A stretch of DNA of 64,000 nucleotides, taken from positions 1-64,000 of IMG/VR virus record IMGVR_UViG_3300035698_004821; one strand, given 5' to 3'. The position numbers and the translations under genes are program-made. Each line of letters starts with the position of its first letter. Within the stretch, counting starts at the first letter, position 1. The DNA is from a virus. This document shows, in pieces, positions 1 through 18,953 of this stretch. Below the pieces are notes generated by a model. It did not search any database, was not told the origin of the DNA, and saw nothing but the letters and a program-made list of their open reading frames with translations.

Positions 1-626
1 AAGTTAGGAAAACTAAAGACTTTAGAAAACAACATAGAGTATTTAGAAAAGAATTAACTCTTCCCTTGGGTAATGTAGATGAGCCTCAGGCCTACGCTTT
101 AGGGGCCTTAATAGGAGACGGGTGTAGAGGTAAGCGCGCCCACGAAAAAAGGGCGAACATAGAAGTCATCAAAACATGGAACAGGAAAACCCTTCTAAAT
201 TTTGTGGCCGGCTTAATCGATTCAGATGGTAGTGTATACAGCAGTGGTAATGAGATAACCATAAATCTAAGCATGCAGGCTAAAGAACCTGTCTTAGCTT
301 TCCAATACGCTCTACTAGCTCTTTGGCAGCTTGAGTCTAGCATATACGTTGATAATAGGCCCAAGTATAAAAATGGTCCTGTCTTGAGCGTGTCTTTACG
401 ACATGCCCATAATGTACCTAGGATATTAAAAGAGCTAACCCCTTATTTAGCAATAGACAGAAAAAAGTACCTGCTAGAATATAACTCCATTTCTACTAAA
501 CATCTACCCACGGACGGTGGCCTTGGGATTATCACAAAAAATATAAGGGTGGAGCATTGCTACGATTTACATGTAGATTCCCCCACGAATCTATATTGCC
601 TCGCCAATGGATTAGTAACCCATAAT
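1..626 (+). other. C-terminal part of a LAGLIDADG-type intein inserted in the terminase P-loop
   Basis: The intein is read in the same frame as the terminase and enters from outside the window. The first dodecapeptide-like motif LGALIGDG is at 99-122 and the second, VAGLIDSDG, at 204-230. Block F-like sequence (CYDLHVD) is followed by the C-terminal block NGLVTHN, with the terminal His-Asn at 621-626 and the +1 nucleophile Thr at 627. The residues used for C-terminal cleavage are intact, so splicing is probably functional. The two LAGLIDADG motifs lie only about 36 residues apart, where monomeric homing endonucleases normally have roughly 90-120, so the first DNA-binding half is mostly missing and the endonuclease is probably inactive. 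Insertion immediately before the Thr of the Walker A motif is a common intein site in phage terminases. Confidence 0.88.
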
Positions 627-4006: not shown

Positions 4007-6143
4007 ACCAGTTTATATAAATACACCTGTACAAGGTAAGGATATCAAATTATCTATACAGGGATCTAGAGGTGGAGACATCGTCAAAGCCCTAGAGAAT
4101 CGCACCAAAATGCTGGGAAGAGTCAGGGGTTATGAGTACAAAGGACCCACTAGCTCCATAGGACGCCATAATGGCACCCGATTTACAACGCCTATATACG
4201 ACCTTAGTGAAATAGCCAGAGCCTCTGACATTGAACCTTACATAACTCAATCCATACGTAAGCACAGAGAGCAGATCCTAAAGGAAGGCTATCAGGTGTC
4301 CGGAGGAGATGAGGACTTCGTTAAGTATATTAAGACAAGACTCTTCGAGATATCCCTCCTAACTGGTATAACTACAGAGAGTTGGGTCAGAGAACTAGTA
4401 ACTAACCTAGTTACGTATCACAACGCATACATCATATTTAGACGAGACGCTAAGAGGTCCAGTGGTAAACCTATCAAGGTATGGGGCAAGGAACTAGAGC
4501 CTATAGCCGGTGTGTTCGTAGGCGACCCCACCACGATGGAAGTGAAGGTAGATAGGTTTGGCACACCTAAGAAGTGGCGCCAACATATTGAGGGAGGAGG
4601 CGTTGACGGTGGAGTCATTGATAAGGAGTACGCCTTCCAGGATGTAGTACACATCACAGTAGACAAGAAGACAGGGTTCACGTTCGGCACCCCATATTTG
4701 CTGCCGGTCCTAGATGACATCCGTGCCCTACGTAAGCTAGAAGAAGTAGCTATTATCGTCGCCTCTAAGGAGGCGTTTCCTTTATACCACTACAAGGTGG
4801 GTACTGAGAACAAGCCAGCCATATACTACGATGGTGGAGAGAACGAGGTAGACAAGGCACATGCTGAAGTACAGGGACTGCCGGCACAGGGTTACATCGT
4901 AACTAGTGAGAGACACGAGATTAAGCTCGTTAGTAGAGAGGGCTCTGCGCTAGACCTATCCCCCTACCTAGACTACTTTGAAGCAAGGTGTATTGCTGGT
5001 TTGAGACTATCTCCCCTAGACTTGGGTAGAGGTGGAGGCTCCTCAAGAGGCACCGCAACCAACATTAACAAGGGACTACAGGACTCTGCTAAGGATTACC
5101 AACAGGTCATCTCAGACACCATATCCCACTTTGTCATACTGCCACTCCTCCTAGAGGGTGGCTTTGACGTCGTAGAGGAGAACCTGGTTAAGTTCACGTT
5201 CCCCACTATAGATAGAGAAGAGGAAAGAGCTGCCCAGAACCATGGCCTTCAGCTGTTCATGGGTAATGCTATTACTACCTCTGAATTCCGTAAGCAATAC
5301 CTTAACAAACAGGCACTTACTGATGAAGATGAGAAGGACTGCAACAGGACTAAGGAGACTGAGGCACAGAAGGAGCTTGCTCAAGTAGCTGCTGCGGCTA
5401 AGGCCTCATCAGCCTCTTCAGGTACTGACTTAGGTCAGAAGTCTGTTAAGAACACCATTAGCAACAAGGGCCAGCCAGCTAACCAAAGTGGGACTAAGCA
5501 GGCTAAGAGCCGTTTCAAGGCTAACGACTATGAGTCTAAAGCCCTGAGCATATACTCTGCTCACAAGTCCAGCATCATAAATAACATAAATGACTTCGTC
5601 AAAGACGATGGCGTCATAGAAGAAATATTCCGTGACGTGGTCAAGTCATGCGTAGAGGCATCCAGAGAGTACATAGATGAGTCGATAGAAGAAGGGTACC
5701 TAAAGGCCAAGAAGGAATACGAGACCGCCAATCCAGATGAGGATGTGGACTTCGAAGAGTTGGGTAACAGAGCCAAAGATAGGTTCTACGCAAACTTCGT
5801 AACCAAGTCATACTGGAAGACCATCACACCCTATAAAGCTCAGATTAACGTGTTCCTCCAGAGGGACAAGGACAACAATCTGGACACCCCGTCGATCGTG
5901 GGTTGCCTGCATATCATTGAGGATAAGATCAAAATATTAATAAGAGATCAGTTAATCACGGCAGAAAGGTTTGGCTTTATTAAGTTTGCAAAAAAAATGG
6001 GCAGCAAAACTATTGATTTAGTGAATCCTGATAATCAGGAAACAGCGCCTTTAGATATAAGTAAGCTAATCTACAAAAGTTTTATCCCAACAGCCGTCGA
6101 CATTGACCACTTTTTAAGCTTTTCTACATCTAAGGAAGAATAG
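3999..6143 (+). CDS. Portal protein
   Basis: The 714-aa product would form the dodecameric ring through which DNA enters and leaves the head and to which terminase and neck bind. The central region has the pattern of phage portal proteins: a helical start (YITQSIRKHREQILKEGY), a beta-rich wing (GVFVGDPTTMEV), an FQDVVHI strand preceding a GTPYL segment, and a helix of the type ALRKLEEVAI. Residues around 455-510 are Ala/Ser/Gln-rich and probably flexible. The C-terminal 200 residues are an extra helical extension beyond the core fold. The ATG at 3999 overlaps the upstream stop by 8 nt. The stop TAG overlaps the GTG start of the protease gene by one base. Position between terminase and prohead protease supports the call. 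Confidence 0.88.
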   Translation: MVKPVYINTPVQGKDIKLSIQGSRGGDIVKALENRTKMLGRVRGYEYKGPTSSIGRHNGTRFTTPIYDLSEIARASDIEPYITQSIRKHREQILKEGYQVSGGDEDFVKYIKTRLFEISLLTGITTESWVRELVTNLVTYHNAYIIFRRDAKRSSGKPIKVWGKELEPIAGVFVGDPTTMEVKVDRFGTPKKWRQHIEGGGVDGGVIDKEYAFQDVVHITVDKKTGFTFGTPYLLPVLDDIRALRKLEEVAIIVASKEAFPLYHYKVGTENKPAIYYDGGENEVDKAHAEVQGLPAQGYIVTSERHEIKLVSREGSALDLSPYLDYFEARCIAGLRLSPLDLGRGGGSSRGTATNINKGLQDSAKDYQQVISDTISHFVILPLLLEGGFDVVEENLVKFTFPTIDREEERAAQNHGLQLFMGNAITTSEFRKQYLNKQALTDEDEKDCNRTKETEAQKELAQVAAAAKASSASSGTDLGQKSVKNTISNKGQPANQSGTKQAKSRFKANDYESKALSIYSAHKSSIINNINDFVKDDGVIEEIFRDVVKSCVEASREYIDESIEEGYLKAKKEYETANPDEDVDFEELGNRAKDRFYANFVTKSYWKTITPYKAQINVFLQRDKDNNLDTPSIVGCLHIIEDKIKILIRDQLITAERFGFIKFAKKMGSKTIDLVNPDNQETAPLDISKLIYKSFIPTAVDIDHFLSFSTSKEE

Positions 6144-7651
6144 TGAAAAACATACATTTCAAAGACTCTATAGTTATCGAACAACCTGTCTCCTCTGTCC
6201 TTAAGACAGATGCAGAAACCATGCTCAACCGAGACAGGAAGCCGAGACTGAAAGTACAAATAGACGCCACACACTCTGGTGTTATCATTAATAATAGGGT
6301 CTATCCTGGCAAGTTTGTCAGGGATGGACACACCTCTTTCTTCTCTAAAAAGAATGGTGGCTCCTCAGAATATGACAAACCAATACTGAAGCACCACAGT
6401 ATGGATGAGGACCCCATCGGTCGCATCATTGATGCTCAGTTTTCACAACTCAAGCACGGACAGTTATTCGATACTGATTTCCTGCAGCCCGATGAGAACG
6501 GGAGTAAAGGGTCTGGAGTAGTAACTATAACAGGGATCATCACTGACCAAGACGCTATAGCGAAGATACTCGACTCACGATACCTAAGTGTATCAGCCGG
6601 ACATAGTTCATCATACATGCTATGCTCCAATTGCGGTGACTCTATCTTTGAGTGCTCTCACTATCCCGGACTACGGTATAATGAAGAGGGCGAAGAAGAT
6701 GAAGATGGTCTAGCATGTTTTGCAATTACAGGTCCCATGAGATACAATGAGGCCAGCTTTGTTAACCTGCCCGCATCCCCTGCAGCGAAGTTAGTAAACT
6801 ACGCGTGGGAAGACTCCAAGGATTCTTGGTGTAAAACAGACATTATTGCCAGCCAAGTTCAGGGTCGGAAAGAAGCGGTACGAAGTTTCTCTCTCTGTGA
6901 TGAGGATGGCGAACTAAGCCTTCTTAGTGGTAAGAGTAAATCTTCCACAAAGAAGACAGTGATTGTAGTAAGCCCTGCAATCGCGGACAAGCTCAAGCAT
7001 GTTATATCTTCTGACGACACTGTTGTGGAGGACGAGCCCATTGATGGCCGTCAGCCAGACAAGAGTGTGAGCTCGGGAGCCTCAGATGCGGCGCGAACTC
7101 TTGATAAGGCGAACGATTTAGATAACACTTCTAAAAAGGAAACTGAAATGGAAAAAGAACTCGAAGACGCCAAGACCGAGATCTCAAGCCTAAATGATCA
7201 ACTAACCACAGCCAAGACCACAACCACTACATTAGAAAAAGAGGTTCAGGCTAAGAATAGTCAGATTGAAAGGCTCACGAGCGACGCTCAGGGCATGCAA
7301 GACAAGATGTCACAGACACTTGCTATGTCACTAGCGAGCATGAGAACTCGTTTCGGCAAGCAGCTCCCTAAGGGTGATGACGGTGAAGACCTAACGACGG
7401 ACCAACTAATTGAAAAGTTAGCTGGAAGATCGGTAGAATCTCTACAAGATTCCCTTGCGGACCTAATGTTTGAAATTGATCAACTACCTGTTGACAAAAT
7501 TGATACCGATGTAAAACCAGCTGATAAGATTATCAGTCAGGATAAGGTATCAGACCCAACCCATCAGCGTGATGGGAATGCACCAAAGGACAAGAAGCCA
7601 GCAGCTCCAACAAGAGCGGTTGACAAACTATCCAGTGGTCTAGGACTATAA
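6143..7651 (+). CDS. Prohead serine protease fused to scaffold (head maturation protease)
   Basis: The 502-aa product should cleave scaffold and capsid precursor during head maturation. The GTG start shares a base with the portal TAG. Residues 36-215 form the protease: GVIINNRVYP, then the candidate catalytic His in KHH (84-85), then the candidate Ser in YLSVSAG (149 or 151). A cysteine cluster follows (C161, C164, C171, H173, C192), in the C..C...C.H.PG pattern known from many phage prohead proteases. The domain ends with EASFVNLPASPAA, matching the usual E.S.V..PA segment. From about residue 270 the protein becomes charged and low-complexity. Residues 336-395 form a coiled coil (MEKELEDAK onward) typical of scaffolds. 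An internal ATG with a good ribosome site suggests that the scaffold part is also made alone. Identification of the protease is good; the exact catalytic triad is inferred. Confidence 0.85.
   Translation: MKNIHFKDSIVIEQPVSSVLKTDAETMLNRDRKPRLKVQIDATHSGVIINNRVYPGKFVRDGHTSFFSKKNGGSSEYDKPILKHHSMDEDPIGRIIDAQFSQLKHGQLFDTDFLQPDENGSKGSGVVTITGIITDQDAIAKILDSRYLSVSAGHSSSYMLCSNCGDSIFECSHYPGLRYNEEGEEDEDGLACFAITGPMRYNEASFVNLPASPAAKLVNYAWEDSKDSWCKTDIIASQVQGRKEAVRSFSLCDEDGELSLLSGKSKSSTKKTVIVVSPAIADKLKHVISSDDTVVEDEPIDGRQPDKSVSSGASDAARTLDKANDLDNTSKKETEMEKELEDAKTEISSLNDQLTTAKTTTTTLEKEVQAKNSQIERLTSDAQGMQDKMSQTLAMSLASMRTRFGKQLPKGDDGEDLTTDQLIEKLAGRSVESLQDSLADLMFEIDQLPVDKIDTDVKPADKIISQDKVSDPTHQRDGNAPKDKKPAAPTRAVDKLSSGLGL
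7136..7140 (+). promoter_or_regulatory. Internal Shine-Dalgarno site inside the protease gene
   Basis: AAGGA lies 7 nt upstream of an in-frame ATG (7148) within the protease/scaffold gene. The strong sites upstream of the decoration protein (AAGGA, 6-nt spacing) and capsid (AGGAG, 6-nt spacing) have the same form. It would start a scaffold-only product. Confidence 0.5.
7148..7651 (+). CDS. Nested scaffold protein from an internal start (predicted)
   Basis: The in-frame ATG corresponds to Met336 of the protease/scaffold protein and would give a 167-aa product. It begins exactly at the coiled-coil segment (MEKELEDAK) and ends with the acidic, Lys/Pro-rich C-terminus that could bind capsid subunits. 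An AAGGA site is correctly placed upstream. Lambda C/Nu3 is the established precedent for a nested scaffold sharing the 3' end of a protease gene. Here the arrangement is inferred from sequence alone; the coiled coil might instead be released by proteolysis. Confidence 0.45.
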   Translation: MEKELEDAKTEISSLNDQLTTAKTTTTTLEKEVQAKNSQIERLTSDAQGMQDKMSQTLAMSLASMRTRFGKQLPKGDDGEDLTTDQLIEKLAGRSVESLQDSLADLMFEIDQLPVDKIDTDVKPADKIISQDKVSDPTHQRDGNAPKDKKPAAPTRAVDKLSSGLGL

Positions 7652-7663
7652 TAAGGAATAATT

Positions 7664-8587
7664 ATGGCAATCAGAGTACCTCGCGGATTTGAAGTTAGTC
7701 GACCGTATTACAATGAGCTTTGTGAAGGTGTACGCCCAGTTGCTGGCGCTACAGCAAAGGAAGCTTGGACGGGACTAGCAATGACTCGGGTCGATGAACA
7801 ACATCACGACCCAATCGTTTTAGAACCTGGTACCCTTGTGGGTATGGTAACAGGTGGAAACGCAATAGCAGAAGGCAAAATGACCCCAGCGGTCATGGGA
7901 ACAGGAGCATCGGACGCCGGTAACCTATCCCAATTCGGAAGTTCAAACGCATGGACGCTACCCATTGGTGCACAAGCTGCAGCAGTTGGTCGTGTTAAGC
8001 CAATTGGCGTTTGCTACCAGCCGATTTACAGCTTCATCCTACAAGATCTTTACACAAACTACACCCGTAACACGGCTGTTGGTGTTGTAACGGACTACGT
8101 TATCCAGATTCCGGCCCTTAACACGGACGAATGGGCTATCGAACCAGGTGATGCAATCATGCTGGGTGAAGGAAAGAACCACGGTATTGGTTACGTTGGC
8201 CCACTAGCCAATGGCACTAACCCAACACACGCTGCTGGCACACACCTTGCGGGACGTTACGCAGCTGTGAAGAACTTCGGTGCTGGTTCCTACGGTGCAC
8301 CTTATGTTGACAACGACTTGCACGACCGTGTAGTCGGTAGATGTCTTAAGAAGATCAAGCTCGGAAACACCACTAGCGCAGTAGGCACCATGCTTGCTGA
8401 TGACCTAGCTAACTTCACGATTGATCCGGCAGCAACAACTGAATACGCACATCTTGCAAAGATTCAGACTGTACCAGGACTACCACTGTCTGGTTCAGGA
8501 ACTAAGGGTATACCAGGCTTTTTCCTCGGCGCACGTGCTGACGCGAATGGAGATTACTGGGGCATGACCCTTCTAATTCGCCTGTAA
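7664..8587 (+). CDS. Putative head decoration/stabilisation protein
   Basis: The 307-aa product is Gly/Ala/Thr-rich and looks all-beta, with no membrane segment or enzyme motif. It has a strong Shine-Dalgarno (AAGGA, 6 nt before ATG) and sits 12 nt before the capsid gene, which also has a strong site, so it is probably made in large amounts. A gene in this place commonly encodes a capsid decoration or stabilising protein. The stretch VTGGNAIAEGKMTPAV resembles the beta-tulip type seen in such proteins, but I cannot confirm the fold. A minor head protein is the main alternative. Confidence 0.6.
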   Translation: MAIRVPRGFEVSRPYYNELCEGVRPVAGATAKEAWTGLAMTRVDEQHHDPIVLEPGTLVGMVTGGNAIAEGKMTPAVMGTGASDAGNLSQFGSSNAWTLPIGAQAAAVGRVKPIGVCYQPIYSFILQDLYTNYTRNTAVGVVTDYVIQIPALNTDEWAIEPGDAIMLGEGKNHGIGYVGPLANGTNPTHAAGTHLAGRYAAVKNFGAGSYGAPYVDNDLHDRVVGRCLKKIKLGNTTSAVGTMLADDLANFTIDPAATTEYAHLAKIQTVPGLPLSGSGTKGIPGFFLGARADANGDYWGMTLLIRL

Positions 8588-8599
8588 TAGGAGATCAAA

Positions 8600-9961
8600 A
8601 TGGAAGATAATCAATTTGACGTGTTCGATAATGCAGAACAAAAGAAAGTCCTGCTAGACATGAAGGCTGAACTAGAACGGTCGAAGGAAAAGAGCACGGA
8701 AGACATGCTCGGTTTCGACGATAGCCCTCTAGTTAGAAAAGACAGAGCTAACCTCTCGAAGGTTCGCGACGTCTGGACGAGAAATGGATACCTGGACAAC
8801 TCCGGTGAGCAGATCACTATTGATCAGCTGCTAGAGAAGGACATCGCTGCCACTCGCCAAATGCAAGATAACTTCAGTACTGACCTACCACTGCTAACTC
8901 CAAGAGTTATCAGCAACTTGGTTCGTGAAGCTATTGAGCCAAACCTGGTTCTGACCCCGCTGCTAAGCAGAGTTAACTATAGTCATGGTACAAGAGTGTC
9001 CTTCCCGACATTCGGTGCTCTAGCTAATGGTGCTGCTGATATTGCAGAAGGTGAAGAGTACCCAGAAGGCACCATGGAAATGGGTGGACAAACCGAATGT
9101 ATCATCGGCAAGAGCGGTATTGCTGTAAAGGTAACCGAAGAGCAGAAACGATACAGCCAGTTTGACATCATATCCATGAACTTCCGCGCAGCGGGTAGAG
9201 AACTAGCTCGTCTAAAGGAGATGAAGGTCTCGAAACTCATTACCAGCAATGGTTTGACTCTGATCGACAACCTAAACGCTGGATTCCCAAGTGCGACTGG
9301 TAGAGATGCCAGTGGTAGCTACAATGGTACCCTAACCCTGGACGACATGTTCAAGGCCTGGAGTGTTATGGTTGACACCGGCTTCGTTCCGAATACTCTT
9401 ATCATGCACCCGTTTGCATGGAGAATCTTCGCGGAAGAAGGCATGTCACGCCTATTCGGCTTCAACAGTGGAAACCAAGCTATGCTATGGCAAACGCCTC
9501 AGGGCAGTCCTGGTAACGCTTCGCAATGGTCGCAGACCATGCTAAACCAAAACACGTATGTTTCGAGTCCCGAGAACATCGCGAGCACGTTCACACGCGT
9601 TCCGTCCCTGTTCCCGACCAACTTTAACATCATCGTATCCCCATACGTCAACTTTACGGCAGCAACCAGTCTCACTGACATCGTCTTCTGTGATATCAAT
9701 GAACTTGGCATCATGGTCGTAGACGAAGATGTGACGATGGATGAGTGGAATGACCCAGCTCGTGACATCATGAAAATGAAGCTTCGTGAGCGTTATGGCC
9801 TGGCCGTCAAGAACGATGGCCGTGGAATTGGCCTTTTGAAGAACATCAAGATCGCGAAGAGTGTTGACTTTGTTGACCGTATTAGTGTTGATTACACTAC
9901 CGGCAGCTTTGGCGCTACTCCTCTAAGTGGAGATGAGACTTACACAGCCGACCCTACCTAA
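8600..9961 (+). CDS. Major capsid protein, HK97-like
   Basis: The 453-aa product forms the icosahedral shell. An AGGAG site lies 6 nt before the ATG. The first 90 or so residues are charged and helical (KKVLLDMKAELERSKEK) and probably act as a scaffold-like delta region that the upstream protease may remove. The sequence then follows HK97-fold order: an N-arm ending in TPRVISNLVREAIEPNLVL, an E-loop with GEEYPEG, a spine helix (FRAAGRELARLKEMKVSKLI), and a P-domain/A-domain with the characteristic GFVPNTLIMHPFAW strand-helix. The C-terminal part ends in a flexible Thr/Gly-rich tail. A terminator follows 41 nt after the stop, consistent with the end of a highly expressed segment. Confidence 0.9.
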   Translation: MEDNQFDVFDNAEQKKVLLDMKAELERSKEKSTEDMLGFDDSPLVRKDRANLSKVRDVWTRNGYLDNSGEQITIDQLLEKDIAATRQMQDNFSTDLPLLTPRVISNLVREAIEPNLVLTPLLSRVNYSHGTRVSFPTFGALANGAADIAEGEEYPEGTMEMGGQTECIIGKSGIAVKVTEEQKRYSQFDIISMNFRAAGRELARLKEMKVSKLITSNGLTLIDNLNAGFPSATGRDASGSYNGTLTLDDMFKAWSVMVDTGFVPNTLIMHPFAWRIFAEEGMSRLFGFNSGNQAMLWQTPQGSPGNASQWSQTMLNQNTYVSSPENIASTFTRVPSLFPTNFNIIVSPYVNFTAATSLTDIVFCDINELGIMVVDEDVTMDEWNDPARDIMKMKLRERYGLAVKNDGRGIGLLKNIKIAKSVDFVDRISVDYTTGSFGATPLSGDETYTADPT

Positions 9962-10001
9962 TCTAACTGATTAGGTGGTGTAGCCTGTAAATAAGCAAGC
10001 G

Positions 10002-10038
10002 GAGCCGGATGCTGTAAGAGGTGGCCGGCTCTTTTTTT
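10002..10038 (+). terminator. Rho-independent terminator after the capsid gene
   Basis: A perfect 7-bp stem (GAGCCGG at 10002-10008 with CCGGCTC at 10025-10031) is followed directly by seven T residues (10032-10038). The T run ends only 11 nt before the next start codon, leaving no room for a promoter, so the downstream gene would depend on read-through or on a promoter farther upstream. Confidence 0.8.
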
Positions 10039-10049
10039 AATACCTACCC

Positions 10050-13000
10050 ATGTCTAACATAATAGTTAAAAACACTACATCCTTCGCTAGAACCGGACAT
10101 GTCACGGTTGGAGTACCTCTCACGAGGGCCTTTGATCTTAAGTTTGGAGCAGAAGTCCTAGTTGTTAACAACGCCAAGGTAGGTGTTACTAACCTTAAAG
10201 CTCAATGGGACTTTCAGGGTAACCGTTATGATAATGGTGCAGCCAAGTACATTAGAGTCACTTTTGAAGTGGATCTACTGGCTAACGAAGAGAAAACTGT
10301 TGTCCTAACCAGACTTCCTGGTTCTGGTACAGTAACTGAACTAAGCTTTGCACCCAATCTAAATATCTTGGGGGACATAGCAGGCACTGTTATAGAGTTA
10401 AGTATAGAGGGGGTGATACACTCCTTCGATATGTTAGACTTGCTACAAAACTCAAATAGGATTTCGGCAAATGGCAGTAAAGATTACTACCACCGTCAAA
10501 AACTCTTCACCCATATGGCTGCTACGTCTGACAGTAGGCGACGCTATCTGTGGGCAGACATAGTAATAGACATACCTGCGCGTCTAGACCAAGTTAATTT
10601 CTTTATTAGATACGGGTACTTCAGGGACTTCCCTGAGTCAGAGCCCAACAGGCCGGAGCCTGTCTTTAACTTATCCCAGAATATAACCCTAAGAGTCATA
10701 GGCCCCAGAACTAAGATCAGATGGGAAGAGTACAAGGTACCTTCTATACAAACCATCTCCCCCACACACAAGATATACACACTCGTAGATAGAGCCCAAC
10801 CTGGACAAAGTAAATTCGTAGCCGGATCATCTAATGTCTACAAAGGGGTGTTCTGCTACGGAAACAGCACCACAGACTCGGCTGAGCTTGAAGACCCCAT
10901 CCTCGCCATGGCTGAAGACTGGAAGCTAAGTGAACACTACCCCGTCACTGGCGTTATGCCTCCGTACCCTAGTTACGTAACTAGTGAATCAAACGCGTTC
11001 AGTAGGAGTGAGACCTTAAGAGTTGACATGGAGAGTGATGTAAAGAACCCTGCCTACAGAAGCCCGTATAACTGGTCACCTATGGCTAACCGACCTGACA
11101 CCACAGGTACTGGAGATCATGGTGAGAGAGACTATGCATACGGCATGCGGGGCATGCCTTGGATGCGCCCTGTCAACTACAATTGGATCCCTTTCCTAGA
11201 GTTCACCACCAGGCAAGAAGGCCTAAGACACATATTCTACTATGACACAGATGGAGAGCCCATACCTCCTTCTGAGTTCCTAAACACTGGTGTATTAATC
11301 TTCCACTCCCTTCCCTTCCGGACAGGGAGTATTAGAGGGTTTACCCGGGTACCTGCTTCTTCTGATACAGCTAGGCCCGTATTCATCCCAGAGAATATAT
11401 ACGGACCTGACAGACAGCACCACACACTGAAGATAATGATGCTGCAGTCTCTCATGACCATGGACTGGTACGGTCTTGAGTTTGCTAAGATGTCAGTTGT
11501 TAACTGGATCAACAACAACAGAGCGGATACGGGTAACCTCTTCATTAACACATGGGAGGCGTCAAGAGCTGCAGGTAGAACGTATGAGAACGCAGCGTTC
11601 CTGTATGAGGTCACGTATGACCAGAGCCTAAAAGCTTTTGTCGAACAGAACCTTAATAGGAACCTGTACAACGGTGCCGATAACCCCTCTACAGCTAACC
11701 TAAACAAGACTGCATTCCCCGGTGGTGTGGAGGTGCTCAGAAGAGCAACAGACAACGTGCCTTCTATACAAGGTGCAGGCTTAGGCCCGCTTAGGCACTG
11801 GAGGCCATGGGAAGAGTCGGCCGTTGCTCTAGGGTTCTTCTTCCTAGCTAAGGCCTTACTTAGATCTGAGCCTAATAACTCCACTGGACTTAAGATACTA
11901 GAAATAGCCCGAGATGTTTCAGCCTCCCTTGTTATAGGTGGTCTATATGATTGTAGCCCCACGTCTAATAGACGTGTTATTGTGGTAGAGTTCCCCAACT
12001 CGTCACAGAGAGCTGCTTTCCAAACAGCCTTAGGTCCCTTGTCCTACGTCGTCCAGGTCACTGGCCAGACTTCAGGTGCTACAGGTCTTATGTACCTACA
12101 GCATCAAGAGGAGGAAGTGAGTACTAACACCAGGCAAAGGATCTTTGTAACGAACGCTAGCGGAGACTTCCAAATAGGTGAAACTATAATGACATCAGTA
12201 GGCGCCACAGCCCCCATAGTGAGGAAGTGGAACTACCTGGGTCGTAAGTCGTACGCTGAAACGGCCCCCACTAATGGCATCTACAGAGAGCTAACTGAAG
12301 CGGAGCAAGATGAGCTAACATTTAGTAATGTCAACTACCCAGTGTCTCGTTACCCAATGGGGTACTTTAAGTACCATGTACTCTACTATGTCTATAGCAC
12401 TCTAGTCATGGTAGGCCCTGCTGTAGTCAAAGAAGCGGGCAGCTACTATGGTGTTGATGAGGCTGTCGTATCCTCCAAGGCAGACCTTTTGATAGCTGAG
12501 TTCGGCACTGACTATGACAACGGAGACTTCAATGAGGCCACATCTAGGTTCTATGGTTACATTGACCCTAACTTTGGTGGCATCTCGACTAAGTTTGTCT
12601 TACCCGCAGCACTTACTAGTGATAGTACATTGCCAATACCTACCATCGTTGTAGAGACAAACATTATAAACGCACAGGCAGAACCGGTATCTCCCATACC
12701 AACTATAGCTGTGACGCCCACTAGCAAAGTGATAGCCATTGGTACTATAGGCTCAACAGACGTTTCGATAACTGTGCCCAGTATTGACCTCACTGTAACA
12801 CCGTTCGATGCCACACCAAGTGCGGGTGGCACACACCCTGTAGTAGGTGCAACCGTCGCCATAACATTCGATGCCCAAGATGTATTTGATGTAGTAGCCA
12901 TACAGAACATCTCAGCCTTTACGAAAAACACCTTCACAATTATTGGTAAGCCACTCAGCGTCATCAACCCATCCTTTGTACATGAGTCTCAAGGCTTATC

Positions 13001-14390
13001 CCCAGGGAACACTGAGGTCACTGTCTTTAATTACCACAAAGTTGTTGTGCTAAAGACCATTGTTGTGTCTGACATTATCACCAACTACTACCTAAGGAAT
13101 CCAGAGAACCCTGTGCCTGGCTTATTAGGTGAGGCCATTGGACTCAATGGCCAATCTTTAGGCCCACAGGGCTACACCTGGAGCCTCCCAGGTACTACTG
13201 AGTACGAACCCACGCAATATGACGTGTCGAGTCATCAGGCCACCCACCGTATCACCAGAGCGGGTAGAGGCGGGTCTATAAGAAACTGGGCAACAACGGT
13301 AGGTAAGAGCACGGTATCTTGGCTGAAGGCAGAGTCAGCCGTACAGGGCCTTAGAATGGATGAGGTGTATGTCGCCGATGTTGACACCAGCAATGTAACC
13401 TACACACCTAACTTCCTAGGAGCGGTTACATCTTTAGTGGGTAGCCAATACACCTTTGTCTCACCTAACCGACTAGTAGAGTCGGCTCTTGTTGAGGCCG
13501 GACTAGTCTTTGAGTCTTCAGTAACGCCCCTAGAGTATGATGGCTTCGCTTTCGGTGGCTCTGCTTCCGAACCAGCTATAGCTCCGTTCATGAAGATGTA
13601 CCACAATATAGCTGTTGAGACAAAGATACCTGGGGTTACTCAACTAGACTTCTGGTCCTTCCATGTTAATGGCATACCCTCTGGTAATCACAACCTATCC
13701 GCCAACCTCAAGTTGGACATACATCAGATGTTTAACCAGATGGTTATCTATGATGTAGACACACAGACATGGGCAGACGTATCATCCCTCCTTCTCAACC
13801 TAGATCAAGAGATCAGGTTTGGTGTAGATAACACTGTCATACAATCTAAGTTGGTGGGTGCCGATCCTGTCATATTACCTAGTAACTTAACGCAGGGCAG
13901 AGGTGCCATCATCTGCGCTGATACGAGTCAGCCCTTTGTAATGGGTTTTGTAGCTGGGTTATCCTCAGCATCAGACTCCTTGAAGAGTGTGACTCACCTT
14001 ACCTTTGAAAACTTCGCTGTTGATAAGTTTAATCCAGGTGGACACAGAATAGGTATATCCAGTATTGACCACTATAATCCAGGATCAGTTACGTCTGATC
14101 CGAGCAACACCTTTAAGAAGACCAATGGCCCTGTTAAAAAGCCCATATTGGAATATGTAGAGGAAACGAAGCCTACTGCTGATGAAATACTATATAAGGA
14201 GACCTCGTCAGGGAAGTTAATAACATCTTCCCGAGCTCCTGGTTGGGTTGGCAGAAGAATGTACGTAGTATTTGGTGCGTCGTACCAGGAAGTGTTTGAC
14301 GCTATTAGGGCCATTGACATTAAGGCACCTATCAAATCTACTATAGATTCTAATGGTCTTCATGCATATGAACGGCCCGCAATAATATAA
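10050..14390 (+). CDS. Large PcRGLX/YetA-like polysaccharide-lyase-type virion protein
   Basis: 1446 aa. Residues 1-95 (HVTVGVPLTRAFDL, then a Trp-containing segment and a YIRVTFEVDLLANEEKTV strand) look like the N-terminal RIFT-barrel domain of PcRGLX/YetA-like rhamnogalacturonan lyases. Residues 100-290 form a second beta-rich domain. Residues 400-680 are helical with WRPWEESAVALGFFFLAKAL, typical of an alpha/alpha-toroid catalytic domain. Beyond about 850 the protein is Thr/Val/Pro-rich, then beta-rich, probably fibre-like or virion-anchoring. No signal peptide or Shine-Dalgarno is seen. The gene lies alone between two terminator-like hairpins, between capsid and neck genes, which is an odd place for a depolymerase. 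It could be a head-surface fibre or an acquired accessory gene. Domain calls are from pattern memory and catalytic residues are not assigned. Confidence 0.55.
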   Translation: MSNIIVKNTTSFARTGHVTVGVPLTRAFDLKFGAEVLVVNNAKVGVTNLKAQWDFQGNRYDNGAAKYIRVTFEVDLLANEEKTVVLTRLPGSGTVTELSFAPNLNILGDIAGTVIELSIEGVIHSFDMLDLLQNSNRISANGSKDYYHRQKLFTHMAATSDSRRRYLWADIVIDIPARLDQVNFFIRYGYFRDFPESEPNRPEPVFNLSQNITLRVIGPRTKIRWEEYKVPSIQTISPTHKIYTLVDRAQPGQSKFVAGSSNVYKGVFCYGNSTTDSAELEDPILAMAEDWKLSEHYPVTGVMPPYPSYVTSESNAFSRSETLRVDMESDVKNPAYRSPYNWSPMANRPDTTGTGDHGERDYAYGMRGMPWMRPVNYNWIPFLEFTTRQEGLRHIFYYDTDGEPIPPSEFLNTGVLIFHSLPFRTGSIRGFTRVPASSDTARPVFIPENIYGPDRQHHTLKIMMLQSLMTMDWYGLEFAKMSVVNWINNNRADTGNLFINTWEASRAAGRTYENAAFLYEVTYDQSLKAFVEQNLNRNLYNGADNPSTANLNKTAFPGGVEVLRRATDNVPSIQGAGLGPLRHWRPWEESAVALGFFFLAKALLRSEPNNSTGLKILEIARDVSASLVIGGLYDCSPTSNRRVIVVEFPNSSQRAAFQTALGPLSYVVQVTGQTSGATGLMYLQHQEEEVSTNTRQRIFVTNASGDFQIGETIMTSVGATAPIVRKWNYLGRKSYAETAPTNGIYRELTEAEQDELTFSNVNYPVSRYPMGYFKYHVLYYVYSTLVMVGPAVVKEAGSYYGVDEAVVSSKADLLIAEFGTDYDNGDFNEATSRFYGYIDPNFGGISTKFVLPAALTSDSTLPIPTIVVETNIINAQAEPVSPIPTIAVTPTSKVIAIGTIGSTDVSITVPSIDLTVTPFDATPSAGGTHPVVGATVAITFDAQDVFDVVAIQNISAFTKNTFTIIGKPLSVINPSFVHESQGLSPGNTEVTVFNYHKVVVLKTIVVSDIITNYYLRNPENPVPGLLGEAIGLNGQSLGPQGYTWSLPGTTEYEPTQYDVSSHQATHRITRAGRGGSIRNWATTVGKSTVSWLKAESAVQGLRMDEVYVADVDTSNVTYTPNFLGAVTSLVGSQYTFVSPNRLVESALVEAGLVFESSVTPLEYDGFAFGGSASEPAIAPFMKMYHNIAVETKIPGVTQLDFWSFHVNGIPSGNHNLSANLKLDIHQMFNQMVIYDVDTQTWADVSSLLLNLDQEIRFGVDNTVIQSKLVGADPVILPSNLTQGRGAIICADTSQPFVMGFVAGLSSASDSLKSVTHLTFENFAVDKFNPGGHRIGISSIDHYNPGSVTSDPSNTFKKTNGPVKKPILEYVEETKPTADEILYKETSSGKLITSSRAPGWVGRRMYVVFGASYQEVFDAIRAIDIKAPIKSTIDSNGLHAYERPAII

Positions 14391-14416
14391 GACAATGTCG
14401 AATAAACTAAAGCTTT

Positions 14417-14516
14417 GTCCGGGATTAACGTGCCGGACGGACCGTGCTACACTGCGCTGGAAACAGTCATGTAGCGAAGCGGTATCACTTTTTGCATCGC
14501 TACCTTTAGTGATACC
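14417..14516 (+). other. Structured non-coding segment with potential pseudoknot
   Basis: The gap 14391-14571 contains no gene but several strong inverted repeats. These are GTCCGG/CCGGAC (14417-14422 with 14433-14438), GCTACA/TGTAGC (14446-14451 with 14470-14475), GTAGCGA/TCGCTAC (14471-14477 with 14497-14503) and GGTATCACT/AGTGATACC (14481-14489 with 14508-14516). The last two interleave, so they can form an H-type pseudoknot or two mutually exclusive hairpins. The second and third also compete. I match it to no known RNA family; it is not a tRNA. It could be a 3'-UTR element, processed small RNA or regulatory switch between the lyase-like gene and the neck genes. Confidence 0.55.
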
Positions 14517-14520
14517 TACG

Positions 14521-14559
14521 GGCGGAGAGGGGCTTGACCCCTCCCTGCCTTATTTTCTT
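14521..14559 (+). terminator. Probable terminator before the neck genes
   Basis: A long stem pairs 14521-14532 with 14538-14549: GAGGGG/CCCCTC around a 5-nt loop, extended outward past one A-C mismatch by five more pairs. The T-rich run TTATTTTCTT (14550-14559) follows. The run is interrupted, so termination may be partial, which suits attenuation ahead of the low-copy neck proteins. Confidence 0.6.
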
Positions 14560-14571
14560 GAGAGATAAATA

Positions 14572-15117
14572 ATGCCTAGAAAAAAGAAAGAGACTACAGA
14601 TAGTCAAGATAATGATATAAGCATTTCAGCATCAGTCGGAGATCCGTCTGCCAGCAATACTAAACTGAAGGGAAAAGAAATTTCTCTTAACCAAAAAATT
14701 GAGTCGTTCTTTGGAGTTGGTGATGTTTGGCTCACCCCTGAAAACTACTCAGCTACTGTGCCTGATAACCTCACGACACAGCAGTGGGAGATCCTAACCG
14801 AAGCCCTTAACAGAGGTCACGTTGTAGAGGGTAACATCTACATTGCGCCTATTGACAAGGACCTAGAAGTACTCGAAGAGTACTGGCACCTAGTCAAGAC
14901 GTACGGCATCGACACTAACGATGAGCAGGCAGTCTCAACACTGGCCTGGCGAAAACTATTTAGGAATGGAGTAGACAGAAACTGGACAGCTAAAGAGATA
15001 GCTAACTTCTGTATGGAGAGAGAACAACGTGGCAAGAACAGAGACCGGGTTATGAAGCTCCTGAAAGATACGCATAAGTACAGCAACTGCCCAGACACAC
15101 TACTAGAAAGCAGATAA
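14572..15117 (+). CDS. Small hypothetical head/neck protein
   Basis: The 181-aa product is not recognised. The first 45 residues are Lys/Ser/Asp-rich and probably disordered. Residues 55-181 look helical and compact (TTQQWEILTEALNRGHVVEG; WRKLFRNGVDRNWTAKEIANF), and the last 30 residues are strongly basic. It lies 12 nt downstream of the T-rich run of a probable terminator, with a weak purine-rich leader (GAGAGATAAATA) before its ATG. It is the first gene of the connector block ending at the sheath. A head-completion or DNA-binding neck role is possible by position only. Confidence 0.6.
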   Translation: MPRKKKETTDSQDNDISISASVGDPSASNTKLKGKEISLNQKIESFFGVGDVWLTPENYSATVPDNLTTQQWEILTEALNRGHVVEGNIYIAPIDKDLEVLEEYWHLVKTYGIDTNDEQAVSTLAWRKLFRNGVDRNWTAKEIANFCMEREQRGKNRDRVMKLLKDTHKYSNCPDTLLESR

Positions 15118-15122
15118 CATAA

Positions 15123-16478
15123 ATGGCTATATCACTACTATCCAGTACTCCGTCCAATGGTGCGACGGATTACTTTATTAATAAGTCAATTGAACTAACG
15201 TTCGATAAGGCTATAGCTGCATCCAGCTTAGATGCCAATGTATTTTCACTAGTAGACATAGCTGCGGGCACTATCCTGCCTGTCACGATCTCACACAGCA
15301 CAGCTTCGACATCTACTGTAGTTCTGTTACCTGGTACAACCTTGAAAGAGGACACCGAGTACAGAGTCATACTTGTAGGCTCGTCTATGGGTCTTGGCTA
15401 CTCTCTCGTCGCTGAAGACCTAGACACTCTCGTAACATCCATCACAGTAGAGTTCTCCACCGGAGATACTGTATACAAGATAGATACGACTGTAGAGAAG
15501 GAAGCAGCTAGTGTGACCTTGGAGGGAGACCTATTTCTACCCACCAATGTCAAGGCCTTAGGCTTTGACTTCGTGATTGAGAAGGTTAGGCCTAAGAATA
15601 ACAAGCACTCTATCCCAGTTGATCTTACCGGTGACAACACCTTAAGGTTCACTTTTTCCAAATCCCTCTACACCGGGTCTGTAGACTTTACAGATTGGGT
15701 GGACATTTCCACCTTCCCCCTATTAAACACAGCTGGGTATCTTGCTAGCGGAGAGACACTAGGGGCCGGAACCATACCCGGCTATACGGTTTCAGTCACC
15801 GGTACAGATCTTTTAGTTGCATTCGACTCTAACCTTCCTAAGAACTTAGGTATCCAAGTAGGGTTGTACGACGCCATCACATCTATTGATGGTGAGTCGT
15901 ATGGAGGTAACATGCAGTACTCCATCAACACAGCGCTTTACCCAGAGATCTACGGGATACAGACAATTAAGAGAGAAGTAAGAGAGGTCTGCGACACATT
16001 CACCGAGGACTACATTGGTGCACTTCTGTTCAAGAACACTATGTGGTCATGGGAGAAGGTTGGCAGATCATTCGACATAAGTAATCCAAGCTTCGCAGCG
16101 AAGCAGTTCATCGTTTACAGCACTATCCTCGATCTCATGGAAGACCGGGAGTACTACAAGTACGTTGTTGCTGGTACTAGACGACAACTCGGAGACCTCA
16201 ACGTCTCCGTGGATAACATCATAGGAAGAATAGCCATGAAGGTGGCTAAGTATCAGAAGGCTAAAGAAAACGCCTTTGAATCATTAGTAGGTGGATGGCA
16301 GTTCAGGGTCGGAGGCAATCAGCTAGGGTACACGGAGATAGCTAATACTATCAACAGGCTCTGGTATAACGTCAACGGCAGATACACGGACAGCAGATTC
16401 AGCTACAAGCAGGACCGGGTTCCTGCGTCTAACATCGCATCAAACAGAGGCGCTAGAACAAACAACCCTATTTGGTAA
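15123..16478 (+). CDS. Neck/connector protein with N-terminal Ig-like domain
   Basis: 451 aa. Residues 1-115 (STPSNGATDYFINKSIELTFDKAI, then VNVFSLVD-like strands and LKEDTEYRVIL) match the bacterial Ig-like SbsA/Big_5 pattern. A second beta region (about 145-275) may be another Ig-like unit. From about residue 280 the protein becomes helical (VREVCDTFTEDYIGALL, then MEDREYYKYVVAGTRRQLG), with an ending rich in Asn/Arg. It starts 5 nt after the previous stop. The combination suggests a virion-surface Ig module fused to a structural connector domain. The specific neck role is not established. Confidence 0.6.
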   Translation: MAISLLSSTPSNGATDYFINKSIELTFDKAIAASSLDANVFSLVDIAAGTILPVTISHSTASTSTVVLLPGTTLKEDTEYRVILVGSSMGLGYSLVAEDLDTLVTSITVEFSTGDTVYKIDTTVEKEAASVTLEGDLFLPTNVKALGFDFVIEKVRPKNNKHSIPVDLTGDNTLRFTFSKSLYTGSVDFTDWVDISTFPLLNTAGYLASGETLGAGTIPGYTVSVTGTDLLVAFDSNLPKNLGIQVGLYDAITSIDGESYGGNMQYSINTALYPEIYGIQTIKREVREVCDTFTEDYIGALLFKNTMWSWEKVGRSFDISNPSFAAKQFIVYSTILDLMEDREYYKYVVAGTRRQLGDLNVSVDNIIGRIAMKVAKYQKAKENAFESLVGGWQFRVGGNQLGYTEIANTINRLWYNVNGRYTDSRFSYKQDRVPASNIASNRGARTNNPIW

Positions 16479-16485
16479 ATAAGAA

Positions 16486-16920
16486 ATGGCAAACATAATT
16501 TATACAAGTTACCTGCAGCACCTGCTAAGTGGAACGATAGATGTTACATCTGACCCAATCTACGCTATGCTACTGTCTGGTACCTATACACCTAACACTG
16601 GGCACTCCCTAGTGGCAGACATCACAGCCTATGAAGTTGTGGATACAGCTGTCTCCCCTATATATGAACAAGGCGGACTAGAGCTGACAAATAAGACAGT
16701 ATCAGTAGTCGCCGGTGAGGTTGTCTTTGATGCCGCTGACGTGTCATGGTCACCCTCGACGATCACCGCATCTGGCATAGCACTGTGGACCTCTGGGGCT
16801 TCAGCTGCAGATCACCATCTTCTAAGTTGGACAGAACTAGGAAACACATCTAGTACGAATGGTACCTTCCAGGTTGTATGGTCACCCAGCGACGGCGTCT
16901 TTAAAGTTGGAGTAAGTTAA
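16486..16920 (+). CDS. Small beta-rich virion protein, tandem copy 1
   Basis: The 144-aa product belongs to a small protein family common in phage structural regions, with the order MAN.IY.S...HLLSG, IYAMLLSGTYTPN, DITAYEV, LTNKTVSV, VVFDAADVSW, and a final strand ending in W.S.G. Such proteins are usually annotated as decoration, head-fibre or tail-associated proteins. It is paralogous to the gene directly downstream, whose ATG uses the last base of this stop codon (TAATG). The family role in virions is known only loosely; copy number and location are inferred. Confidence 0.7.
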   Translation: MANIIYTSYLQHLLSGTIDVTSDPIYAMLLSGTYTPNTGHSLVADITAYEVVDTAVSPIYEQGGLELTNKTVSVVAGEVVFDAADVSWSPSTITASGIALWTSGASAADHHLLSWTELGNTSSTNGTFQVVWSPSDGVFKVGVS

Positions 16921-17336
16921 TGGCAAATCAAGTATACAATAGTTTTAAAATGCATCTTCTTAGTGGCGATGTAAACCTAGAAACAGCGAACATCTGGATG
17001 GCTCTGACAAGTGGAACCTATACGTTCTCACAGACCCACGAAGTAATAGGTGATATTTCAGAAGAAATTATATCCGCAGGCTATGACGTAGGCGGTCAGT
17101 TAATACCTAGTACATCCCTTACTACAGGTACGACAACAACTGAGGGCCAACTAACGGGACATGGAATGACATATAGTGGTTTAACATCTATTGTAGAGTT
17201 TGGTATTATTTGGGTCTCAGGGGGAACAGATACTACTAACTACCTACTTGGGCAGGTTGATTTTGGTAGTCAAACTCTGACCAGCTCGGACCTAGTCATT
17301 ACCTGGAACACGGACGGCATTTACAACCTTACCTAA
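16920..17336 (+). CDS. Small beta-rich virion protein, tandem copy 2
   Basis: This 138-aa paralogue of the preceding gene shares the start MANQVYNSFKMHLLSG, the WMALTSGTYTF strand, a DISEE turn, and the terminal pattern LVITWN.DGIYNL. The two copies are clearly diverged, so the duplication is not recent. It overlaps both neighbours by one base (TAATG junctions), indicating coupled translation. It may form a hetero-oligomer with copy 1 or decorate a different site. Confidence 0.7.
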   Translation: MANQVYNSFKMHLLSGDVNLETANIWMALTSGTYTFSQTHEVIGDISEEIISAGYDVGGQLIPSTSLTTGTTTTEGQLTGHGMTYSGLTSIVEFGIIWVSGGTDTTNYLLGQVDFGSQTLTSSDLVITWNTDGIYNLT

Positions 17337-17896
17337 TGTTACCTGATCTAAGAGAAGTTATCGACTCCCTCTCGGGGAGATCCAATAAGCTCTTCCCTAA
17401 CGGGAAGGAGGCTATTGGTTTTCAATGGTTTGGTTTACGCCAGCCTGATTTCGGTAAGAAGTGTGGATGCACGCCCTTAGAGGGTACGTCTGAAAATCAT
17501 ACGTGTACCCGGTGCCTAAACACCGGCTACCTGTTTACAGACTACTTGGTTAAGGGTTACTTCTGGATAGGTGTATTAGGTTCTGAGTTCGGTGCTGCCC
17601 CAGGCATCCTATCGACACAACAAAAGAACATAGTGGTAGAACATAACAGACCTATCAATAAGTTCGACTTTGTACTTGAGATAGACAAGGACCCCGATAC
17701 AGGCGTCCCTAGACAGCCGTTTGCTATAACTAAGTACTTACGTGTACAAGATAGTGTTGCCCTTAAGGGTGACTCAGCTAAGACAGAGTTCTGGAAATGC
17801 TCCCTAGAAGAAAGGAACATAGAAGACGGCCGACCACAGGGTGGCGGCACCGGATTCAACTACCAGGGTAATAGGTCTAACATTGAGCCTCAGTGA
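17336..17896 (+). CDS. Putative neck protein with Cys-rich (zinc-ribbon-like) motif
   Basis: The 186-aa product is of unrecognised family. Residues 43-61 contain KKCGCTPLEG followed by HTCTRCLNTGY, giving four cysteines as CxC and CxxC pairs that could bind zinc. The rest is beta-rich and soluble, with an acidic middle and a Gly/Asn-rich C-terminus. It starts on the previous stop codon and its end overlaps the next reading frame. Position two genes before the sheath fits a head-tail joining or tail-completion protein, but no direct evidence distinguishes these. Confidence 0.6.
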   Translation: MLPDLREVIDSLSGRSNKLFPNGKEAIGFQWFGLRQPDFGKKCGCTPLEGTSENHTCTRCLNTGYLFTDYLVKGYFWIGVLGSEFGAAPGILSTQQKNIVVEHNRPINKFDFVLEIDKDPDTGVPRQPFAITKYLRVQDSVALKGDSAKTEFWKCSLEERNIEDGRPQGGGTGFNYQGNRSNIEPQ

Positions 17897-18938
17897 CGAT
17901 CAGCTACCTAACTTCGGAGATAGGTACCTTCAGTATTTCAACCCTGAGCGTCAACAGTTTGAGCTGAGGCGCAAGACAACCCATGAAGGCTCCCTTGGTA
18001 TATCCCAAGCTATGGAGCTGGCACAGAGACTAATGCGTAAGCATCAGCTCTCCTACGTACCCAACAAGACGGACAAGAGACTCATACTCTTGCCGTTCGC
18101 GTTCATAGAACCACAAAAGGGTCAGAAGATCATTAACACCACGACTAAAGAGGTGTACACTATTGATCAGATTATAAAGAACCCTAACACTAACCAGTGG
18201 AACGGATTGGTCAAGCTAGACTTGATCAACGCACCTTCCATAGAGGCAAGGCACTCCTTACAGTACTTAGACTCAGACAACTACATAAAGTTCGACCATG
18301 AGTTCCCTGACGTTCTGTTAAATGTTCCAAGAGCAAATTTAGAGGGTGAGTTGAAAAACTTACCGCCTATAGTACCAACGATTACCTGGTCCCTCAAGAC
18401 CGTAGAGCCTGGAGGGATAGGTAAGGCCTTTGACAGCAGAAAAGAACTAAAACCAAGACTTAGGGAGTCAACTAAAGACCCTTATGTTAGCGGCCACACA
18501 GTTGAGATCTGGGGTCAGTGGTTTGATAATATTGTTCAGTTCGATGCATGGACCTCTGGGTTTAAAGCCTCAGAACGTCTCTTGTCCTGGATGGAGCAAT
18601 TCCTAAAGCTGTATACAGGGTATCTGAGAGAGCAAGGAGTCAACCAAATGTTTTTCTGGAGGCGTCATGAAGACACTCAGCTTAGCAGTTGGAGGCAACA
18701 AATGCCCGTCAAAAGTACCCAGTTTTACTTTCGTACCGAAGAGATAGAAGCAGTATATCAAAGAGATATACTCAAGATAGATGTGTCAATCGGAACTGAA
18801 GGCGTTCTACCCTACAATGATAAGTACCGTTATATTGCAGGGCAGAGAGTTTCAGGGGCTTATACCCCTGACGAGTACCGAGCGCTATTCTATAGATCTG
18901 GTGAATATTTGTTTGGAGACTTAGATATTCGCCAATAA
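17841..18938 (+). CDS. Putative tail terminator/neck protein before the sheath
   Basis: Product of up to 365 aa. The longest version starts with GTG at 17841 and overlaps the previous gene by 56 nt. An in-frame TTG at 17883 would reduce the overlap to 14 nt and is an equally reasonable start. The N-terminal part is basic (QQFELRRKTTHEG); the middle contains PPIVPTITWSLKTVEPG and a conserved-looking segment GHTVEIWGQWFDNIVQFDAW, followed by helices and a beta-rich end. The style recalls tail-completion proteins that cap the tube and contact the sheath, but the family is not certain. A GGAG site for the sheath follows right after the stop. Confidence 0.6.
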   Translation: MAAPDSTTRVIGLTLSLSDDQLPNFGDRYLQYFNPERQQFELRRKTTHEGSLGISQAMELAQRLMRKHQLSYVPNKTDKRLILLPFAFIEPQKGQKIINTTTKEVYTIDQIIKNPNTNQWNGLVKLDLINAPSIEARHSLQYLDSDNYIKFDHEFPDVLLNVPRANLEGELKNLPPIVPTITWSLKTVEPGGIGKAFDSRKELKPRLRESTKDPYVSGHTVEIWGQWFDNIVQFDAWTSGFKASERLLSWMEQFLKLYTGYLREQGVNQMFFWRRHEDTQLSSWRQQMPVKSTQFYFRTEEIEAVYQRDILKIDVSIGTEGVLPYNDKYRYIAGQRVSGAYTPDEYRALFYRSGEYLFGDLDIRQ

Positions 18939-18953
18939 TGGAGATAAAATACA

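Follow-up and report, generated by a model that had tools for sequence, protein, structure and literature searches.

The gene at positions 10,050 to 14,390 on the plus strand of the IMG/VR virus record IMGVR_UViG_3300035698_004821, of which bases 1–64,000 out of 93,084 were analysed here (the window), encodes a protein of 1446 amino acids that may serve the phage as an unusual device for binding or cutting sugars, produced along with its head. This is suggested because its predicted fold and remote sequence signals match PcRGLX, a family of pectin lyases from bacteria and fungi. PcRGLX, of family PL26, is an exo-rhamnogalacturonan lyase from Penicillium chrysogenum (PDB entries 5XQG, 5XQO, 5XQ3 and 5XQJ); the bacterial YetA-like proteins are described by Pfam families PF19501, PF21345 and PF21346. 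We give about an even chance to an accessory, probably virion-borne protein of PcRGLX-like architecture, which would bind and possibly cleave glycans. If true, production of a PcRGLX-fold protein together with the head would be a different way of meeting glycans from the depolymerases of tail fibres and spikes. The open reading frame starts with ATG and is intact, exactly as delimited in an earlier, sequence-only reading of this DNA. That it is truly coding is certain, because ten other contigs have, at the same place, homologues whose reading frames are open and whose start is conserved. It was then called giant, which holds in a relative sense only, as five other open reading frames of the window also encode at least 1446 amino acids.

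The fold was modelled on a homologue from contig L010. An AlphaFold2 model of its residues 1–846, built from 10 sequences and used in place of a model of the window protein, has a mean predicted local distance difference test score (pLDDT) of 66.8 and a predicted template-modelling score of 0.66, with most of the first 290 residues at pLDDT 70–90. When this model was compared with the PDB using Foldseek, 14 PL26 PcRGLX chains (5xqg, 5xqo, 5xqj and 5xq3) were found with probability 1.00 and E-values of 3.3e-6 to 1.3e-4, over about 770–1000 alignment columns and thus nearly the whole length; the match to 5xqg covers about 980 columns (probability 1.00, E 3e-6). The PL26 order of RIFT barrel, central beta-sandwich and carboxy-terminal alpha/alpha-toroid is present in the model. 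GH38 mannosidases score similarly by E-value, over about 420 columns. In BFVD, the viral protein A0A516M318 (738 amino acids) matches the L010 model with an E-value of 1.7e-15 and a template-modelling (TM) score of about 0.5.

Sequence profiles point to the same family. Bacterial PcRGLX-like proteins for comparison were retrieved by their RIFT motif and divided into 21 canonical members (A10), verified by the three Pfam domains that bona fide bacterial PcRGLX proteins all match, and nine divergent ones (A11; L117, L124, L151, L166, L172 and others). With hhalign, the phage family profile aligns to A11 with an E-value of 4.4e-6, columns 19–87 of the RIFT segment pairing with columns 46–110. A second, independent segment in the toroid, collinear with the first, pairs columns 453–540 with 553–635 (E 0.0014). 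Against the canonical A10 set only the RIFT segment aligns, at E 0.0016–0.0042. In 100 shuffles of de-gapped columns, the maximum score was 22.7 against A11, where the real score is 60.6, and 27.7 against canonical PcRGLX, where it is 40.2. When the columns of the gapped alignments were shuffled, the real score was exceeded 3 times in 60; these cases are taken as gap artefacts because none of 100 shuffles exceeded it once mostly-gap columns had been removed. Searched against 3157 open reading frames, a hidden Markov model (HMM) of A11 matches the L006 protein (E 2.9e-6), followed by the L012 and L010 proteins at 0.03; no other phage open reading frame in that set matches at E <= 1. The RIFT barrel at the amino-terminus and the alpha/alpha-toroid that the sequence-only reading had recognised as PcRGLX/YetA-like are thereby backed by Foldseek, by shuffle-controlled profile alignment and by the bacterial HMM. 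The profile search it had called for succeeded profile to profile with the divergent proteins and failed with the Pfam PcRGLX models.

The shared core of the family comprises residues 1–842, in which the following segments can be distinguished, all on the plus strand. A RIFT-barrel-like segment (about residues 1–90, positions 10,050–10,319; GVPL...Q..W..RYDNGAAKYIRVTF) is defined by the hhalign match and by the A11 HMM, which aligns to residues 5–89 of the L006 protein. It is followed by a beta-sandwich-like segment (about residues 91–290, positions 10,320–10,919), placed by the secondary structure of the L010 model and by Foldseek matches to PL26 and to the beta domains of GH38 mannosidases. 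An alpha/alpha-toroid-like segment (about residues 300–842, positions 10,947–12,575) shows helical pairs in the model, and is covered by the whole-length match to 5xqg and by the second hhalign segment. A beta insertion with a TSGATG motif interrupts the toroid (about residues 640–730, positions 11,967–12,239); short Foldseek matches connect it to domains of cyanophage proteins, and it is perhaps a widespread phage structural module. Beyond the core, alignments and low model confidence mark a linker-like segment rich in serine, threonine and valine (about residues 843–1000, positions 12,576–13,049), and the carboxy-terminal domain (about residues 1001–1446, positions 13,050–14,387) is common only to the L007 and L012 proteins.

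Besides the predicted order of RIFT, beta-sandwich and alpha/alpha-toroid, the phage proteins share with PcRGLX and YetA a RIFT signature, G-[VI]-P-[FW] ... RWxxG[AS]xK, and apparently a toroid signature, RxxWxYxxxG. The former, in full GxP[FW] ... Q ... WPDGSxKW, occurs in the degenerate form RWDxGAxKYxR. The latter reads RxNWxYxxxG in the phage proteins, where R393 and G402 are invariant, and is repeatedly aligned with RHxWxYDxGG of PL26, each single match being weak. Of the canonical toroid set YGFWNYGDxxH, RHxWxYDxGGxAWDNxE and HWGCSxKQ, only RxxWxYxxxG is retained as far as a remote alignment that is not residue-accurate can tell. Unlike the PcRGLX and YetA proteins, the phage members match no Pfam model, have the toroid insertion and variable carboxy-termini, and are encoded in a head module. 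The divergent A11 proteins are the closest by profile, and a histidine that they carry just ahead of the TGD/TMD loop of the toroid is aligned with H457 of the phage family; unlike that family they are bacterial and have no known phage context.

Several observations weigh against a glycan-active, PcRGLX-like virion protein. The fit of the L010 model to PL26 is loose, with TM-scores of 0.26–0.34 (0.34 for PcRGLX) and a root mean square deviation of about 14 Å. The AlphaFold2 model of window residues 1–897 (6 sequences) is poor, at pLDDT 49, and its Foldseek search retrieved GH38 (E 1e-3) ahead of PL26, which reached no better than E 0.17. Neither the window protein nor its relatives match the Pfam models PcRGLX_1st, _2nd and _3rd at E <= 1, and no counterpart could be seen for several motifs of canonical PL26 members (AWDN, HWGCSAKQ). 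Retrieval by RIFT motif biases the RIFT match, though not the toroid match or the Foldseek result. No homologue was found among 50,697 phage records, and loss of the gene in two lineages means that it is not essential. With the low TM-score, the comparable E-values of GH38 beta domains and PL26, and HMM-to-sequence searches of Pfam, PHROGs and the PDB that gave nothing useful at E-values up to 10 (the sole PDB match, with A8, being PilE at E 0.11), the protein might be an ordinary large fibre or structural protein that resembles PcRGLX by coincidence, both using common beta-sandwich and helical-pair folds. We consider this very unlikely, since three independent approaches, the whole-length 3Di structure search, the shuffle-controlled profile comparison and the bacterial HMM, lead to the same family with the same domain order. 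The evidence supports, at the level of remote homology, a phage family with a predicted PcRGLX-like fold, rather than an established member of PL26.

Homologues of the 1446-residue protein are present at the same place in ten other contigs of uncultured phages and measure 993–1446 amino acids where complete; the homologue in L001, identical to the window protein, and that in L009 run off the ends of their contigs. Identity to the window protein is 31–39% for L006 (1002 amino acids), L007 (1415), L008 (1221), L010 (993) and L012 (1426), and 19–20% for the more distant L026 (1164), L027 (1133) and L028 (1142). The order of capsid gene, 1446-residue-type gene and neck gene is found in the window and in eight relatives that have both neighbours, as well as in the two cut-off ones. 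Both neighbours are present and the gene is missing in L004, L025, L029 and L030. The slot lacks the gene in all phages with a capsid identity of 43% or less, and no copy lies elsewhere in eight larger contigs of such phages. At this place there is no sequence homologue in the named phages MTATph1, KLEB27-3 and ME3, and in bacterial genomes none was found with the patterns used. The family now defined is absent from Pfam, PHROGs and INPHARED.

In the capsid tree, the carriers of the gene form one clade of 15 rows (94/94). A single old gain followed by at least two clean losses is suggested as the simplest history, because two gene-less contigs branch within this clade, L004 beside the window group (100/98) and L025 beside L010 (100/100). 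The sequences indicate an old gene, mostly inherited vertically; recent acquisition by the window phage is rejected on the evidence of the tree. The suggestion that it is an accessory gene at a permissive site consequently stands for a dispensable gene at a fixed site, and not for a one-off insertion. Rapid evolution, as might mark a receptor-binding protein, was also considered and rejected, the core identity between relatives (44%) being about that of the neck gene (48%), with the capsid at 70%.

Hairpins flank the gene on both sides. An intrinsic-terminator-like hairpin, GAGCCGG...CCGGCTC-TTTTTTT, lies between it and the capsid gene (positions 10,001–10,038, plus strand; sequence and predicted fold), with a z-score of -1.9 alone. 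A hairpin with a T-run recurs at this place in every relative that was read, with or without a 1446-residue-type gene; the gene therefore begins shortly downstream of a terminator-like site. In the window (positions 10,031–10,050) and at the same place in L006–L010 and L012, the start codon follows the T-run by a few to about 20 bases. The start site mostly has no Shine-Dalgarno sequence; L009 has AGGAG. A second terminator-like hairpin with a T-rich tail (positions 14,520–14,558, plus strand; hairpin 14,520–14,551) precedes the neck-type gene, and its z-score of -3.0 was reached by none of 200 shuffles. Both hairpins by which the gene had been described as isolated are thus real. Counts of sigma-70 promoter-like and terminator-like sequences in positions 1–20,000 are near the shuffle level, and because of the promoter-like counts no promoter of its own is claimed. 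A cassette between two hairpins, cleanly missing in some relatives and encoding no recognised anchoring domain, could specify a late-expressed soluble enzyme outside the virion, freed at lysis to clear extracellular polysaccharide. This is unlikely: the gene always lies co-oriented within the morphogenesis module, and the protein begins directly with the RIFT segment, with no apparent amino-terminal signal peptide.

The preferred reading, of an accessory protein probably incorporated in the virion and produced together with the head, would work as follows. The core would adopt the PcRGLX/YetA-like architecture, the toroid being broken by the short beta insertion, and the variable carboxy-terminus would most likely serve attachment or display. 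The toroid would most likely bind, and possibly cleave, a polysaccharide of the host surface or surroundings, and this contact would help the virion to remain in, or pass through, a glycan layer. It is the position of the gene that points to incorporation into the virion, and the fold that points to a glycan as ligand; cleavage by the predicted toroid is the weakest step. The gene, its family, the fixed position, the losses and the fold resemblance are computational observations.

Across the nine full-length relatives, whose identity falls to about 20%, eight residues are invariant: R393, D454, H457, D472, R506, R510, W587 and D622. The seven polar ones are candidates for lining a sugar cleft. 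The motif WRPWEES, earlier singled out, is present in the window protein and is not invariant; the most distant relatives have xPWQxS. The conservation of these eight residues exceeds the obvious needs of a pure scaffold, and this speaks against a protein of the same fold acting as a non-catalytic head or neck decoration or fibre, its toroid being a scaffold or glycan-binding adhesin devoid of lyase or hydrolase activity. Such a protein remains a doubtful alternative, consistent with the divergence from PL26 and the few polar residues kept, the absence of the motifs HWRPWEE and HGxRDYAYG from L026–L028, the wide range of lengths produced by carboxy-terminal modules, and the similarity of the inserted beta segment to short cyanophage domains. 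Equally tentative is the more specific proposal of an enzyme that would sit on the head or neck, cleave glycans and have the RIFT and alpha/alpha-toroid fold of the PcRGLX type, encoded directly beside a previously undescribed conserved phage RNA element; both the type of depolymerase and its place on the virion would then differ from characterised tail-spike depolymerases.

The latter form elongated trimers that are reported to sit on the fibres or spikes of the tail (PMC5380687). The proposed role, acting on glycans of the host or environment, is like theirs, whereas the predicted fold is of toroid type and the gene lies among head genes; no beta-helix match was found, and the model is a helical toroid. 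Another parallel is offered by accessory virion genes of 0305phi8-36-type phages, which are acquired and lost in blocks adjacent to conserved head genes: in 0305phi8-36 such indels carry virion proteins, including curly-fibre candidates and head decoration, and gp154 is a putative beta-glucosidase fused to a virion-anchoring domain (PMC2147016). The Bacillus jumbo phage BpSp has a baseplate-bound virion glycoside hydrolase (PMC4870245).

The RNA element is a new motif in its own right, with strong statistical backing, and occupies a constant position in phage head modules. It extends over positions 14,417–14,516 (plus strand) and, from the covariance model and pair counts, comprises P1, GGACCG (14,439–14,444), P2/P2b and P3 with the loop UCGCUACC (14,497–14,504); GGACCG is invariant and CGCUACC nearly so. 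Covariance model R1, made from five members, has a single match in the record of the window and finds the element in 12 sources of the clade, the window included. Among these are L004, L025, L029 and L030, all without the protein gene, the last two matching weakly (E 0.35 and 0.04); the element of L028 was recognised by eye. It thus precedes the neck-type gene in the window, L004, L006, L007, L008, L010, L012 and L025–L030, and in most loci a terminator-like hairpin with a T-run follows it. In 12 sequences, 94.6% of the pair cells are standard and 23 of 24 pairs show two-sided changes, counts that lean towards the structure to which the alignment was fitted. The covariation score is 0.909, versus 0.261 when shuffled (0 of 500) and at most 0.156 when slid. 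RNAalifold predicted no pairs from the raw MAFFT alignment because the helices were misaligned there, which was solved with the covariance model. No Rfam family matches. The element goes with the slot and the gene after it, not with the 1446-residue-type gene; it may act as a riboswitch-like attenuator, as a small RNA or as a ribozyme.

The earlier placement of the gene between capsid and neck genes agrees with its neighbours, both on the plus strand. The major capsid protein gene (positions 8600–9961, 453 amino acids) matches Pfam Phage_capsid_4 (E 2.8e-15) and PHROG 3922, major head protein, and has relatives in 0305phi8-36-type phages. The neck-type gene (positions 14,572–15,117, 181 amino acids), a syntenic marker at the same position in all relatives, owes its assignment to that position only. 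Upstream of the capsid gene are genes for the large terminase (starting at 66), the portal (3999) and a 502-residue protein (6143) with a relative in Bacillus phage KLEB27-3 that is annotated as prohead protease. Downstream follow a 451-residue Big_5 protein (15,123), two paralogous small proteins (16,486 and 16,920) and the tail sheath (18,954). Capsid, portal, terminase and sheath tie the phage to Moorella phage MTATph1, Bacillus phage KLEB27-3 and Acinetobacter phage ME3, whose annotation lists many homologues of Bacillus phage 0305phi8-36.

The small paralogues (positions 16,486–17,336; 144 and 138 amino acids, about 30% identical) are in tandem, and both are retained in L007, L010 and L012. 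Two of the relatives without the 1446-residue-type gene encode a second protein of Phage_capsid_4 fold in addition to their major capsid protein (L029, 3339–4589, 416 amino acids; L030, 2823–4046, 407 amino acids); its gene lies between the neck-type gene and the Big_5 gene. Positions 57,869–61,351 of the window encode a candidate tail spike, a protein of 1160 amino acids that weakly matches a right-handed beta-helix (E 2.7e-5).

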